In this document: positions 1,251-15,782 of the stretch, piece after piece | Layout of the letters: each line of letters starts with the position of its first letter | How positions within the stretch are numbered: position 1 is the stretch's first letter | Source: a virus | IMG/VR virus record: IMGVR_UViG_3300010354_000685 | Coordinates: 1 to 23,257 of that record | Strand: one strand, 5' to 3' | DNA: 23,257 nt | Made by a program: the position numbers and the translations under genes | Notes under the pieces: generated by a model | Database searches by the model: none | What the model was told of the DNA's origin: nothing | What the model saw: only the letters and a program-made list of their open reading frames with translations

Positions 1251-1261
1251 ATAAGTTAAAC

Positions 1262-1286
1262 TAGGACCAGGTTACTACTGGTCCTA
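1262..1286 (+). promoter_or_regulatory. Perfect 9-bp hairpin abutting a start codon
   Basis: TAGGACCAG (1262-1270) and CTGGTCCTA (1278-1286) are exact reverse complements around a 7-base loop. There is no following T-run, so it is not a classical terminator. Its last base is the A of the ATG at 1286, and an AGGA core sits in the 5' arm. It could attenuate transcription after the high-expression genes, stabilise the upstream 3' end, or restrict initiation of the next gene. Confidence 0.6.
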
Positions 1287-1714
1287 TGTCAACTCTTCCA
1301 GCAATGCTTTATCAGCATAAAAAAACAGGTGCAAGAGTCAAAGTTGTAAGCGAATGGGATAACGGCGATTGGTTCATGGTCGAAGATCAAGACGGTCGCC
1401 TTTATACCGCTTATAAAACCGAACTTACACCTGATGAAGATGCAACAAAAAAAGTTAAAGCTCTTCAAGTAAAAGATAAAGCTTCAAAAGAAGAGCCGCG
1501 CACTTTTCCACCCGATCACCGCTTGAACATTAATTCAGCTACTCCTCAAATGATCGCTGATCATATTAAGGGTATTGGATTAAAAACAGCCCGCGAGATT
1601 AAAGATCTTCAAATGTCCTTATCGGGTGAGAGGTTTAATAATCTTGAACAACTTAAGCAAATTAAAAGAGTCGATTGGGATGCGGTATTGTCTGCGGATT
1701 TAATTCGCGTTTGA
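1286..1714 (+). CDS. Helix-hairpin-helix (ComEA-like) protein
   Basis: The 142-residue protein has two parts. Residues 7-50 form a small beta-rich, Trp- and acid-containing module (SEWDNGDWFMVEDQDGRLY) that may be SH3-like. After a Lys-rich linker, residues 80-142 match the ComEA-type helix-hairpin-helix pattern: RLNINSATPQMI, then IKGIGLKTAREI and a final helix pair. HhH modules bind DNA backbone non-specifically or mediate protein contacts. Possible roles are DNA handling in the head or at the connector. The ATG at 1286 touches a hairpin; ATG 1304 is an in-frame alternative, but neither has a strong Shine-Dalgarno site. Base composition is AT-richer than the two upstream genes. A strong terminator follows. 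Confidence 0.6.
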   Translation: MSTLPAMLYQHKKTGARVKVVSEWDNGDWFMVEDQDGRLYTAYKTELTPDEDATKKVKALQVKDKASKEEPRTFPPDHRLNINSATPQMIADHIKGIGLKTAREIKDLQMSLSGERFNNLEQLKQIKRVDWDAVLSADLIRV

Positions 1715-1724
1715 CACGCAACTA

Positions 1725-1748
1725 CCCCTGGAATTCCAGGGGTTTTTT
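1725..1748 (+). terminator. Rho-independent terminator
   Basis: CCCCTGG (1725-1731) pairs with CCAGGGG (1736-1742) around an AATT loop, and six T residues follow directly. It lies 11 bases after the stop codon of the HhH gene and closes the first transcription block. Confidence 0.93.
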
Positions 1749-7087: not shown

Positions 7088-10000
7088 GTGCTAATCCTTG
7101 GTTCCACCACAGATTTAATTCAGGTTGTTACTTCTAGTACAGCATCGCTAGAAGTGCATGCTTCCTATGTCGATAACGACAATGGTGTCATCAACCCCGA
7201 ACGCAAAAATACTGTTATTTCTTCTGCTACAACAACGACAATCGTTGAATCCCCTGATGAGAATATTCAACGCAATGTAAGAACGCTTTACTTTAAAAAC
7301 GAATCAGCCTCTGTTTCTAATACGTTAGACGTTCAACATACCGATGGTACAACGGTTACCACGGTATGGGAAGGAGCGCTTGCCGCAGGTGAAGAATTAG
7401 TTCTAGATCAAGAAGGCAATTGGCATGTCTATGACGCCAGTGGCCTAGAAAAAGTCTATGCCATGATTGGCCCTACGGGACCAGCAGGTAGTCCTGGAGG
7501 AGCCACAGGGCCTACTGGCGTTCAGGGAACAACAGGTCCTACCGGTATTCAAGGGACGACAGGTCCTACCGGTCCGCAAGGAACAACGGGTCCTACAGGT
7601 GTTACCGGTATTCAAGGTGCTACTGGTCCACAGGGAACAACAGGCCCCACCGGAATTGCCGGTCCGACAGGTGCACAGGGAACAACAGGAGCTACTGGCG
7701 CACAAGGCATTACAGGTCCCACGGGAGCTACTGGTCCAGAAGGAGCTACTGGTCCCACTGGTATTGAAGGACCTACCGGTGTCGAAGGACCCACAGGTGC
7801 ACAGGGAACAACCGGTCCCACTGGCGTACAAGGAACAACAGGCCCCACCGGAGCAACAGGTCTCCGTGGAGGCGTACGTTATAACTTCAGTACTTCGACA
7901 GTTAATGCCGACCCTGGCACAGGTGTATTCCGTTACAACAGCTCTACAATCTCAAGCGTTACATCCATTTACATTGATAATGCAGATGTCAACAACACTA
8001 GCCAAGCGGCGTGGATTACTTCGTGGGATGATTCTTCTTCCTCAGTAAAAGGTTATTTAACAATCAATGATGCCACTAGCAGCGGCACGTCATTAAATAT
8101 TTTCCGCATTACAGGCACTGTCACAGGGGCAACGGGTTATTACATTATTCCAGTCGAATATGTCATTGGGTCTCTTCCTGGTGGTGGCAGTCCTCTGACA
8201 ATTGAATTTTCAAGAACCGGAGACCTAGGAGCAACAGGTCCCACTGGTGACCAAGGAATAACAGGCCCTACTGGTCCATCTGGACCTACTGGCGTACAAG
8301 GTCCTACAGGTGTCCCAGGAGCTACCGGCTCAATCGGTATTACCGGAGCTACCGGCCCTATTGGCGCTACGGGTATTCAGGGGCCCACTGGTTCAATCGG
8401 TATTACCGGCGCTACAGGTCCACAGGGAGCAACAGGTGTTGCAGGTCCTACAGGTGTAACTGGTGTACAAGGAGCTACTGGCCCACAAGGTCCCACTGGT
8501 CCTGGAGGCCCAACAGGCGCCACAGGCGTACAAGGTGCGACGGGAGTAACGGGGCCACAAGGTATTACTGGCCCAACAGGAGCCACTGGTATTCAGGGTG
8601 CCACAGGTGCAGCAGGTTATTCTTCAAGCTTGTTTAAATACAATGCAAAGACATCAACCACAACAGGCGATCCTGGTGCAGGCTATTTAATTTGGAACAA
8701 TGCCACGCAAACAAGTTCCACAAGCATTAGTGTTAGTCATTTAACAAGCGACAGCGTTGATGCTGATATCTTTTTGGCTTTATTAGTTCAAGAAGAAAAG
8801 TTAACAATTCAAGATCAAAGCGCAAGCGCTAACTATCAAACTTGGAAGATCAATGGCACGCCATCAAATACAAATCCTGGAGCAGCAAACAGTTACTGGA
8901 CGTACCCCGTAAGTCTTGTGGCTTCAGGCGGTACTGGCACATCTAATTTTTCAAATAACCAAGCTGTTTTCTTGGCGTTGGTTAATGGTTTATCTGGACC
9001 TACTGGCCCCACTGGAGCTACCGGTCTGCAAGGAAGTACAGGTCCAACAGGTGCGACAGGTATAGCCGGTACAGCAGGGGCGACAGGAGCCACAGGCCCA
9101 CAAGGTGCTACAGGCGCTATTGGCATTACTGGTGCTACAGGAATCCAGGGTGCCACAGGTGCCACCGGAGCAACAGGTGCAATTGGCATCACAGGTGCTA
9201 CAGGTGTTCAAGGTGCTACAGGTGTCCAAGGTGCTACAGGCGCTATTGGCATCACAGGTGCTACTGGTATTCAAGGTGTTACAGGTGCTACAGGGCCCAC
9301 TGGCCCTCAGGGAACCCCTGGTGGGGCAACTGGGGCCACGGGAGCCACTGGTCCAGCAGGTACAAACGGCGCCACAGGTGCTACTGGCCCCGCTGGTACA
9401 GACGGTGCAACGGGTCCAACAGGTGTTACGGGCGCGACAGGCCCTGCAGGCAGCGGTGGCGTCTCCCTCGCGAGAATTGATACTAGATATTACTTTCCCT
9501 ATGGAGTTAATGCTGCTTCTACTACAAATGTAGTAATAACCGCAAATCGTGTTTACTATACAGCTTTTGTTAATACAACGACAACGACTTGGACCGAAGT
9601 AGGAATGAGGGTGACGACTGCGGCAGGAAGCTCTGCATTGCGTTTTGGTGTATATGCAGCCGGCTCTTCTGGCTTGCCAACAACATTACTTCAAGATTTT
9701 GGAACAGTTAGCTCTACTACAACCGGAACAAAAACAATTACGATATCATACCAAATGGATCCGGGTGTCTATTATCTGGCCTACACTTCAAACGGCGCTC
9801 CAACACTGGGCGGTTCGTCACTTACTGTTGCTTCTGTGACATTTTTATATGGATCACATAGTGCTGGGGTTACAGCTAGCATTGCGCTTTGGTACGAAGA
9901 CCCTGGCCTAAGCGGTTCTTTGCCAAGTACGGCAAATACCTCACTTTCTTTCCAAGATACTAGCCTTGTCAGGGCATATCCCTGGTTACGAATCGCTTAA
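7088..10000 (+). CDS. Collagen-like tail fibre protein (970 aa)
   Basis: GTG start. Residues 1-127 form an N-terminal domain, probably for particle attachment. Three uninterrupted Gly-X-Y stalks follow (128-262, 381-510, 637-791), built from GPTG, GATG, GVQG and GITG units with Thr very frequent in the third position. Between them are two globular domains (263-380 and 511-636) that resemble each other: both begin with an aromatic-Y-N strand, then DPGxG, a central (K)LTIxD element and a PV core. Residues 792-970 form a distinct beta-rich C-terminal domain, probably the receptor-binding tip. Collagen-like segments are known in phage fibres and form triple helices. The next gene, a glycosyltransferase-methyltransferase, starts 10 bases downstream and may modify it. 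Confidence 0.88.
7469..7873 (+). repeat. Collagen-like repeat block 1 (codes Gly-X-Y)
   Basis: About 45 Gly-X-Y triplets (residues 128-262 of the fibre), mostly built on GPTG, GATG and GTTG. The DNA repeat is degenerate at third positions (ggt, gga, ggc, ggg alternate), so it is a protein-level repeat and not a recent tandem duplication. Confidence 0.93.
8228..8617 (+). repeat. Collagen-like repeat block 2
   Basis: About 43 Gly-X-Y triplets (residues 381-510), with more Ile-containing units ([12 protein letters not shown]) than block 1. It links the two related globular domains of the fibre. Confidence 0.93.
8996..9460 (+). repeat. Collagen-like repeat block 3
   Basis: About 52 Gly-X-Y triplets (residues 637-791). 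It includes a higher-order repeat of roughly 36-60 bases around 9100-9290, where [13 protein letters not shown]-type units recur with high nucleotide identity. This is the most recently duplicated stalk and a likely place for length variation. Confidence 0.92.
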
Positions 10001-10010
10001 AAAGCTAACC

Positions 10011-11633
10011 ATGCAGCTTCATCTAATTGGCCTGTTCCACACGCGTACAACCCTAGATTATTCGCACTGCGCATTTACGGGAAAGGTCTTGCGTTTTCCC
10101 AAGATGATGCAGCGTTTTGGATATGAAGTTATTGAGTATTCAAATTTTGACAGTGAGTCTACAGCTGATGAGCATGTAGAAATTTTAAATAAAGAACAGT
10201 TTAATTCTTTCTTTGGTAAACGTGAGAAAACTGATTTCTTTGGAGATCACGCCTGTGTTGGCAGCCCTGCCCACCAGTTATTTGAAGAGCGTTTAATCGT
10301 TGAACTACATCAACGTGTCAAAGAAAAAGATATTATCTGCCATCCGTTTGGACACGCACATCAAAAACTTTTAGCCGAGTTCCCTAATAATCACCACGTT
10401 GAGACTGGTATTGGCTATCCAACTTTGATGCCGAATACTTTTCGCATCTTTGAATCATACGCATGGATGCATTATCACCAGGGGAAAGAAGACAGACAAG
10501 GGCGTAATTACGAGTGGGTTGTGCCTAACTACTTTGATTTAGATGATTGGGAGCCAAATGAAAAAAATGGAGATTATCTAGCTTTCCTTGGCCGCATTTG
10601 CAGCGCCAAAGGAATGGACACCATTCGTGCCATTGCAGATTATAGTCCGTGGCCCATCATTCTCCATGGACAAGGAGATCCATCCCCCTGGGCACACCCC
10701 AACATTTTTTATGAAGGCCCCATCTCTGGCATGGAGCGTTCCAACTTTTTGCGTAACGCACGAGCCGCATTGATGCCAACAAACTTTACTGAGCCGTTTG
10801 GGGGGAGTGGTGTAGAGGCAATGTTATGTGGTACTCCGTTGATTGCCGTTGATTACGGTGCATTTACAGAGACCATCGTGGATGGTGTCACAGGATTCAG
10901 GTGTCACACGCTTCAAGATTGGATTGATGCGATTGAAAGAGCAGGTGATTTAGATCGAAAACAAATTGCACGCATCACAAGAGAACGCTACAGCCTGGAA
11001 ACTTGCGGTGAGAAATATGACAAGATTTTCAAGGACATCAATGCGTTATGGGACAAAGGTTGGTATCAACTGAAAAATCATGATGTCATTGATTACACCA
11101 GTCTTGATATAGAGGAAAAACCCTTTGCCAAAAGGTTAGCTCGCTGGATTGACGATGCTTACTTTAGTCCCGATCTTCTGATCGATCTTGGTTGCGGACC
11201 AGGGACTTATGTTGAATGTTTTAATGAACTAGGGATTGATGCAATTGGATACGATATTGATCCACGGATAGAAGGTAAGCCCAATCTTTTTTGCCAAGAC
11301 CTTTTAACTGTCACGCCTGAGGAAAAGGCTGGCGTAGTTTTGTGTATGGAAGTAGCTGAGCACATGGATGAATCCAAAAACAAAGAAATCATCCAAGCTA
11401 TTTTGCGTTGTTTAGCACCAAAGGGAATTTTAATTTGGACAGCAGCAGCCCCTGGTCAAGGTGGGGTTGGCCACATTAACTGCAAACCAAAAGAATACTG
11501 GAGAGACCTAATGGATAAAACACCTGGTCTATGTCATATGCCAGGGATAGAAGACGCTTTAATAAAAGACATGAAACGAGGGTATCACATGGGTTGGTTT
11601 GTACAGAATGTATTGGTATACTGCCAGCAATAA
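10011..11633 (+). CDS. Glycosyltransferase (GT4-like)-SAM methyltransferase fusion
   Basis: The likely start is ATG 10011 (540 aa), 10 bases after the fibre stop; an upstream in-frame ATG at 9966 lies inside the fibre gene. Residues 1-350 look like a GT-B glycosyltransferase of the GT4 type: FLGRICSAKGMD at 192-203, a Rossmann-like IILHGQGD, and the E261-x7-E269 signature in EPFGGSGVEAMLCGTP, followed by ETIVDGVTGF. Residues 385-540 are a class I methyltransferase: DLGCGPG at 392-398, an acidic strand end (GYDID), and VAEHMDESKN with LAPKGILIW. The linker around 350-384 is helical. It probably transfers a sugar and methylates it. The adjacent collagen-like fibre is the obvious substrate candidate, but DNA or host surface glycans cannot be excluded. 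Confidence 0.85.
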   Translation: MQLHLIGLFHTRTTLDYSHCAFTGKVLRFPKMMQRFGYEVIEYSNFDSESTADEHVEILNKEQFNSFFGKREKTDFFGDHACVGSPAHQLFEERLIVELHQRVKEKDIICHPFGHAHQKLLAEFPNNHHVETGIGYPTLMPNTFRIFESYAWMHYHQGKEDRQGRNYEWVVPNYFDLDDWEPNEKNGDYLAFLGRICSAKGMDTIRAIADYSPWPIILHGQGDPSPWAHPNIFYEGPISGMERSNFLRNARAALMPTNFTEPFGGSGVEAMLCGTPLIAVDYGAFTETIVDGVTGFRCHTLQDWIDAIERAGDLDRKQIARITRERYSLETCGEKYDKIFKDINALWDKGWYQLKNHDVIDYTSLDIEEKPFAKRLARWIDDAYFSPDLLIDLGCGPGTYVECFNELGIDAIGYDIDPRIEGKPNLFCQDLLTVTPEEKAGVVLCMEVAEHMDESKNKEIIQAILRCLAPKGILIWTAAAPGQGGVGHINCKPKEYWRDLMDKTPGLCHMPGIEDALIKDMKRGYHMGWFVQNVLVYCQQ

Positions 11634-11660
11634 AAAACAGCTCTACAATTTGTAGAGCTG
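11632..11660 (-). terminator. Rho-independent terminator of the leftward HTH gene
   Basis: CAGCTCTACA (11638-11647) and TGTAGAGCTG (11651-11660) are exact reverse complements around a 3-base loop. On the minus strand the stem is followed by six T residues (11637-11632), the canonical order for a leftward terminator. It overlaps the end of the rightward fusion gene; on the plus strand the stem has no T-run, but it may still protect that 3' end. Confidence 0.9.
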
Positions 11661-14963: not shown

Positions 14964-15089
14964 ATGGCCAAACCCAAATCAACCACCACTCACATTGAGG
15001 GCAAGCCCAAGACCACTTCTATTGGTCAAGGTCAAAATAGCCGTCCTGAACGCCGAGGCAAGAAGAAGCTACGCGGCCAAGGTAAATAA
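14964..15089 (+). CDS. 41-aa basic phage mini-protein
   Basis: The ORF begins MAKPKSTTTHIEGKPK and ends RRGKKKLRGQGK. It has 41 residues, about one third Lys or Arg. The pattern TSIGQG...RPERRGKKK.RGQG resembles short basic proteins encoded next to lysis and packaging genes of several tailed phages, which supports it as a real gene despite its size and weak Shine-Dalgarno site. It lies 38 bases after the 99-aa basic protein and ends 14 bases before the hairpin of the lysozyme gene, so ribosomes finishing here may influence that hairpin. Nucleic-acid binding is plausible from charge alone. Confidence 0.6.
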   Translation: MAKPKSTTTHIEGKPKTTSIGQGQNSRPERRGKKKLRGQGK

Positions 15090-15103
15090 AATTTATGTAT
15101 ATT

Positions 15104-15125
15104 GGGAGTAATAATGATTACTCCC
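15104..15125 (+). promoter_or_regulatory. Perfect hairpin sequestering the lysozyme RBS and start codon
   Basis: GGGAGTAAT (15104-15112) and ATTACTCCC (15117-15125) are exact reverse complements. The loop is AATG, which contains the start codon ATG 15114-15116. The GGGAG Shine-Dalgarno core is the 5' end of the stem. Folded RNA would hide the ribosome-binding site. This layout resembles the hairpin that silences early-transcript translation of T4 lysozyme gene e. A TATATT box (15098-15103) directly upstream could start a shorter transcript lacking the 5' arm. Confidence 0.8.
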
Positions 15126-15782
15126 ATGTCGGATCTTTCGTGTGCTATTAATTTAATTCGTAAATACGAAGGATTCAACGAAAAAGCTTACCCCGATCCG
15201 ACCACTGGCGGTGATCCCTACACCTTTGGGTATGGCACACAATTTTACCCAGACGGTTCCCCAGTGCGAAAAGGGCATTGTTGCAGTAAAGAAAAAGCCT
15301 TGGAATACTTGTTTCACGAGATTAACTTAATCGAAACACAGCTATTAAAACTTAACTTTGGACTAGAAAGCCACATGCTCCAAGCTTTGATTTCATTTGT
15401 GCACTCAATCGGCTGGGAACCTTTTTTGTACACAAGCATCATCGACCATCTTGAGCTGGAAAACTACGAGAGCGTTACTCACGAAATAAGTCGATGGATT
15501 TTTGATGCTGATCATAAAGTCATCGGGGGTCTCTTGGATCGGCGCAGAGAAGAAATTGATCTATTCCTCCAAGGGGTCAGCAACATTCCCGGCTGTGCCA
15601 ACGGTGTTTTACTGACTGCCTTCCGTAATTACACTGCATCTGCAAAGCAGGTTAACGCAATTAGGCAATTAGAAGAAGCCATCAATCCCTATGTGCTCTC
15701 CGAATTTGCCAACAACTTCCAAACAGAAGAAGACCCTTGGGGGATTGAGGAAGATGACACATATTTATTGTTTGACAGATAG
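15114..15782 (+). CDS. GH24 (T4-type) lysozyme, probable endolysin
   Basis: The best start is ATG 15114 (222 aa), six bases after GGGAG; TTG 15102 and ATG 15126 are in-frame alternatives. Residues 14-45 show the GH24 active site: E19 in RKYEGF, D28 in AYPDPTTGG and T37 in YTFGYGT, matching the Glu-Asp-Thr triad of T4 lysozyme. The C-terminal lobe has the expected helices and the conserved GGLLDRRREEIDLFLQG segment (around 140-157). Residues 160-222 form a Cys- and acid-containing extension. There is no signal peptide, so release would need a holin. It cleaves glycan bonds between MurNAc and GlcNAc. The start is enclosed in a perfect hairpin, suggesting delayed translation. Confidence 0.88.
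   Translation: MITPMSDLSCAINLIRKYEGFNEKAYPDPTTGGDPYTFGYGTQFYPDGSPVRKGHCCSKEKALEYLFHEINLIETQLLKLNFGLESHMLQALISFVHSIGWEPFLYTSIIDHLELENYESVTHEISRWIFDADHKVIGGLLDRRREEIDLFLQGVSNIPGCANGVLLTAFRNYTASAKQVNAIRQLEEAINPYVLSEFANNFQTEEDPWGIEEDDTYLLFDR

Follow-up and report, generated by a model that had tools for sequence, protein, structure and literature searches.

The lysozyme locus and its start codon

The window, i.e. the whole stretch of 23,257 nucleotides analysed here (IMG/VR record IMGVR_UViG_3300010354_000685), contains a lysozyme gene preceded by a 41-aa open reading frame, with no terminator seen between the two. A hairpin with a perfect stem of 10 bp and a loop of 4 nt (15103-15126) lies at the start of the lysozyme gene and is abutted on its upstream side by a promoter-like motif, and the same layout is found at a second gene (1286-1714) of the window (Table 1). 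The lysozyme scores 64.5 bits against PF00959, well above the curated cut-off of 22.3, and its nearest relative among phage isolates is the lysozyme of Synechococcus phage S-EIV1 (59% identity). With homologues of both the lysozyme and the 1286-1714 gene and with similar gene order and neighbours, the window belongs to the S-EIV1-like lineage.

Table 1. Features at the two start-codon hairpins of the window
Feature	Position	Strand	Evidence
Promoter-like hexamer TAAACT (inferred), abutting the second hairpin	1257..1262	+	TAAACT in most relatives; TAATAT in L337 group
Second start-codon hairpin, TAGGACCAG-GTTACTA-CTGGTCCTA, 9 bp, ending on the A of ATG 1286	1262..1286	+	paired changes in relatives
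142-aa protein, weak helix-hairpin-helix match, only in S-EIV1 lineage	1286..1714	+	
Intrinsic-terminator-like hairpin and T run after the second gene, CCCCTGGAATTCCAGGGGTTTTTT	1725..1748	+	inverted repeat
41-aa ORF upstream of lysozyme	14964..15089	+	same-size, same-position ORF annotated in S-EIV1 (73040-73165)
Promoter-like motif TATGTATATT (TGTGTATGATT or TATTAT in relatives), with hexamer TATATT abutting the stem	15094..15103	+	101/102 distinct rows
Lysozyme hairpin, 5' arm TGGGAGTAAT	15103..15112	+	perfect 10-bp inverted repeat; compensatory change among relatives
Inferred transcription start, 7 nt past the hexamer, inside the 5' arm	15110	+	hexamer spacing, predicted
Lysozyme hairpin, loop AATG, with non-conserved ATG 15114-15116	15113..15116	+	ATG here in 3/188 loci
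Lysozyme hairpin, 3' arm ATTACTCCCA	15117..15126	+	ends on the conserved start codon's A
218-aa lysozyme (PF00959), starting at the conserved ATG 15126	15126..15782	+	Pfam E=1.5e-17; PHROG 7 endolysin; S-EIV1 homologue annotated from same ATG

The lysozyme reading frame offers two in-frame ATG codons, one in the hairpin loop (15114) and one at the end of the stem (15126). The original prediction had taken the loop codon as the start. Among 188 homologous loci, however, an ATG occupies this position only in the window and in two near-identical contigs, whereas elsewhere the loop reads ATA, GCT, ATT, GTA and others, and any in-frame ATG, GTG or TTG between -24 and -1 is found at only four of the 188 loci. 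Loop-length variants among the homologues even throw the loop region out of frame. Since, in addition, the lysozyme in the GenBank record of S-EIV1 begins at the equivalent of the downstream codon, we reject the loop ATG as the gene start and place the conserved start at 15126, where the stem overlaps with nothing but the A. The GGGAG run in the 5' arm, previously taken for a Shine-Dalgarno (SD) site, consequently lies 17 nt from the real start, a distance beyond that of an ordinary SD, and no normally spaced one is present. Starts of this kind are usual in this phage, as an SD-like 4-mer precedes only 5 of 25 genes in the window and 19 of 128 genes in S-EIV1. The analysis corrects the start codon of the lysozyme and suggests control at the start site without a Shine-Dalgarno sequence.

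Several further features of these genomes were recorded. Positions 7088-10000 of the window encode a protein of 970 aa that is rich in collagen-like repeats (Pfam Collagen, E=4.8e-57), and positions 9966-11633 encode a glycosyltransferase-methyltransferase fusion, just after which lies a perfect 11-bp inverted repeat (11638-11660). The terminase large subunit of S-EIV1 (L085:9080-11620) carries an insert of about 333 aa (residues ~199-531) which is absent from 21 relatives and matches the intein splicing domains PF14890, TIGR01445 and TIGR01443.

Comparative evidence for an RNA stem

In the window the hairpin pattern occurs once and in none of 100 shuffled sequences. It was originally described as a perfect 9-bp stem with a 4-base loop; stem and loop are real, but the stem is one pair longer. 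Folding of an 81-nt stretch also forms the hairpin, with a z-score of only -1.92, and since folding energy alone is therefore unconvincing it is the comparative evidence that counts. The 188 loci yielded 64 distinct 24-nt cores, 42 of which are in the register of the window. Within these 42 cores, 96.9% of the cells hold standard pairs, as compared to 89.4% after shuffling (not reached in any of 500 shuffles) and 32-64% in slid controls, and 44 cells are altered on both sides as compared to 14.5 in the shuffles (again 0/500). The T-A closing pair is invariant (42/42). Parsimony on the tree of lysozyme coding sequences, a count that rests on this one tree and ignores recombination, gives about 33 double-compensatory changes and 32 single changes that leave the pair intact, as opposed to 12 that break it. 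The conserved stem spans positions -23 to +1, i.e. the translation initiation region of the lysozyme, with the A as the only paired base of the AUG.

The cores contain 43 G-U pairs and only 5 A-C mismatches. Even though 23 of these G-U pairs fall on the innermost pair, 20 are left when it is set aside, and an imbalance of this kind argues for plus-strand RNA, and against DNA, as the molecule in which the stem matters. It also bears on the idea that the palindrome is a DNA operator, at which a dimeric repressor or activator overlaps a promoter. At both genes the palindrome does overlap a promoter-like motif. Yet the arms vary widely within the lysozyme family and are unrelated between the two genes, and in the L114-L118 group the stem is wholly different, a turnover incompatible with recognition by one fixed DNA-binding protein. 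On the G-U/A-C counts and this turnover we reject the operator, which we regard as highly improbable. Judged from the aligned leaders, the plus-strand RNA stem of the lysozyme leader is under selection in the S-EIV1 lineage.

Cores outside the register of the window mostly fold too, either with other loop lengths or with different stems; the L114-L118 group forms an unrelated, longer stem in which the upstream motif is incorporated, and the A of the ATG is its final base here too. A search among relatives for substitutions that break the stem without compensation thus came out in favour of the stem, a few divergent lineages excepted. In the divergent leaders L112, L117, L119, L120, L136 and L173 the stem is weak or missing, and most of them keep the upstream motif. 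The folds of the lysozyme starts of four other cyanophages, S-CBS2, S-CBS3, S-2L and S-CREM1, contained no hairpin ending on the start codon. A search of Rfam matched the element to no family, and the literature searched, which comprised papers other than the S-EIV1 genome paper, contained no earlier report of it.

The upstream motif as a candidate promoter

The TATATT box described as lying directly before the stem is found at 15098-15103 and thus reaches one base into the stem. The motif to which it belongs precedes the lysozyme stem in 101 of 102 distinct rows. Among 458 ORF starts of five related genomes it stands at 12, which include some of the lysozymes. Clades with unrelated upstream sequence keep it as well, and it is retained in L117, L119 and L120 despite their weak stems. 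At the predicted transcription start site, all 61 rows have T(-17) and A(-16). We take the motif for a putative promoter, and with the usual hexamer spacing the 5' end of its message would lie inside the arm. The leader of such a message would measure about 16 nt, and the RNA would not be leaderless, as had been considered possible.

No convincing -35 element was seen upstream of the motif, and a protein with sigma-70 region 2 (PF04542) was not found in eight related genomes. We also considered a general late promoter and rejected it, as motifs of the TRTGTAT type are not systematically repeated before other genes in five related genomes. Both the S-EIV1 record (position 52445) and a related genome, G002 (position 82239), have an extended -10 sequence, TGNTATAAT, in front of a small gene whose size is similar in the two, which suggests that there are host-type promoters elsewhere in the S-EIV1 lineage.

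The position of the motif immediately upstream of the stem would also fit a hairpin at the very 5' end of the message, where transcription begins just before the stem and the structure acts positively, by protecting the end or by positioning ribosomes. Stem-loops at 5' ends stabilise certain bacterial and phage mRNAs. However, the usual spacing from a -10 hexamer places the start within the arm, and a stem ending on the A of the AUG should impede binding of the 30S subunit, and hence we think this explanation improbable.

The same layout at a second gene

A long hairpin that ends on the start codon is found at only two genes of the window, the lysozyme gene and the 1286-1714 gene, and the two hairpins share their layout but are unrelated in sequence. 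Over about 150 loci the outer pairs of the second hairpin co-vary (AGG/CCT, AAG/CTT, GGG/CCC, GAG/CTC and AAA/TTT) and its loop is free to change; its inner pairs are nearly invariant, which makes the covariation weaker than that of the lysozyme stem. The S-EIV1 orthologue (62875-63306) bears an 11-13 bp version. The abutting hexamer, TAAACT, is a poor match to a -10 element.

When the window, S-EIV1 and four related genomes were scanned for hairpins of at least 8 bp, 11 had the A of an ORF start as their exact end point as compared to about 2 at each other offset. Owing to two additional paired bases, the scan scored the S-EIV1 lysozyme stem at offset -2, and it did not list the G002 lysozyme stem. 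Ten of the 11 belong to the lysozyme (four) or to the 1286-1714 orthologue (six), and the remaining one looks like chance. What comparison of the homologues establishes is thus a conserved plus-strand stem, its register with the AUG, the abutting motif and the recurrence of this arrangement at two genes.

The second gene shares 83% identity with its S-EIV1 orthologue and matched no other phage isolate record. Its 142-aa product is about 80-98% identical in hundreds of viral contigs, with S-EIV1 as the only isolate record, and may be of use as a marker gene of the lineage. The predicted structure of the protein encoded upstream of this gene is of low confidence (pLDDT 58.8).

A model for bypass of the start-codon hairpin

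Opening of the region from -15 to +10 of the lysozyme message was calculated to cost on average 15.2 kcal/mol in a long RNA and 6.7 kcal/mol in an RNA cut at -17, the cut point being assumed (n=102), and the difference exceeds 4 kcal/mol in 88 of the 102 rows. Shuffling of the 5' arm lowers the cost to 9.4. For the second gene the corresponding values are 18.5 in the long and 3.5 in the cut RNA (n=77). On this modelling the stem would inhibit translation, and the timing of lysis may be affected.

We suggest, with a probability of roughly 60%, that at two genes of this lineage a hairpin occludes the start codon and is bypassed by an internal promoter, in a manner resembling gene e of the unrelated phage T4. 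Read-through RNA from the upstream genes would contain both arms and form a 9-10 bp stem over -23 to +1, on which 30S subunits would load poorly at the lysozyme start. The hexamer overlaps the stem by one base, and RNA initiated from it would begin about 7 nt further on, within the 5' arm; lacking a complete arm it would form no stem, and its AUG would be open behind a short SD-less leader. The hairpin is thus probably preserved so that lysozyme is made only from messages that start inside it and not from read-through. Lysozyme synthesis would in this way be split from the upstream operon and put under a promoter of its own, and the 1286-1714 gene would be served by the same design. If this is true, accessibility of the AUG is set by the position of the transcription start.

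Ribosomes of the 41-aa gene had been proposed to open the stem as well. The distance from the stop codon of this gene to the stem is 13 nt in the window and about 25 nt in S-EIV1, which leaves no conserved opener. Moreover, the genes upstream of the lysozyme run in the same direction and resemble late genes, so that the hairpin may serve to counter something other than the early read-through known from T4, and that the lysozyme is separated from its upstream operon is the safer statement. Overall, the idea of a hairpin like that of T4 gene e is strengthened by the compensatory changes, the conserved abutting motif and the second gene, but the start codon in the loop, the SD site, the ribosomal opening of the stem and the leaderless RNA are either wrong or unsupported.

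But could the hairpin not simply keep expression low at all times? In that case it would be present on all messages and hold both gene products below those of the upstream operon genes, there would be no internal promoter, and the motif would have another role. The stem alone is predicted by the modelling to inhibit strongly, both genes follow a gene on the same strand without an intervening terminator, the -35 box is lacking and TAAACT is weak as a -10 element, all of which agrees with constant down-tuning. It would not readily explain why conservation of the upstream motif depends neither on the upstream gene nor on the stem, or why at both genes the end of the hexamer coincides with the edge of the stem, as an internal promoter requires; a plain weak initiation site would moreover suffice for this purpose without a covarying stem. 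We therefore consider constant down-tuning unlikely, albeit the strongest of the alternatives. Cleavage in the stem or loop by a nuclease would free a 3' fragment on which the start codon is open and so give the same relief of occlusion, and the freely varying loop and stem sequences would be tolerable to a structure-specific enzyme. However, the conserved upstream motif would be left unexplained and the stem is short for double-strand cleavage, so that we give processing very little weight. Ranked by likelihood, constant down-tuning is followed by the 5'-terminal protective stem, nuclease processing and the DNA operator, in this order. Bypass of the hairpin from an internal promoter remains our preferred reading.

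Comparison with known systems

The closest characterized relative, S-EIV1 (KJ410740), has homologues of both the lysozyme and the second gene with the hairpin in the same register at both starts. It differs from the window in that its lysozyme stem is bulged and its motif reads TATGTTTATTAT, and the element is unannotated in the record. As the S-EIV1 isolate and its Synechococcus host have been described, control of the lysis gene is directly testable in this system.

In phage T4 the leader of the lysozyme gene e forms a hairpin and is served by late promoters, and soc, 49 and I-TevI are further genes of this kind (PMC3014915). The T4 case is experimentally proven, whereas the device described here is proposed from sequence comparison, and the two lineages are unrelated. 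The T4 3' arm carries the strong SD AGGAGGT whereas the arm found here is pyrimidine-rich and has no SD; the T4 promoter is TATAAATA and differs from the TRTGTAT(G)ATT-like motif; and in the present lineage the A of the AUG alone is paired and a second gene shares the device. Then again, a hairpin covers the lysozyme initiation region on longer transcripts in T4 and would do so here. A promoter at or in its 5' part yields shorter T4 transcripts without the 5' strand, and the candidate promoter of the present lineage would act likewise. The same calculation gives an opening cost of 15.9 kcal/mol for the long T4 gene e RNA, close to the mean of 15.2 kcal/mol obtained here, and about 4.7-4.9 kcal/mol for the short one. 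The comparative evidence thus points to the trick of T4 gene e in an unrelated and very common lineage of freshwater cyanophages, and at more than one gene. Whether one goes further and sees in it a switch that depends on structure only and not on an SD, that holds the -10 hexamer, the 5' arm and the AUG in one register at two dissimilar genes, and that arrived by evolution at the principle of T4 gene e independently, is in our opinion evenly balanced.
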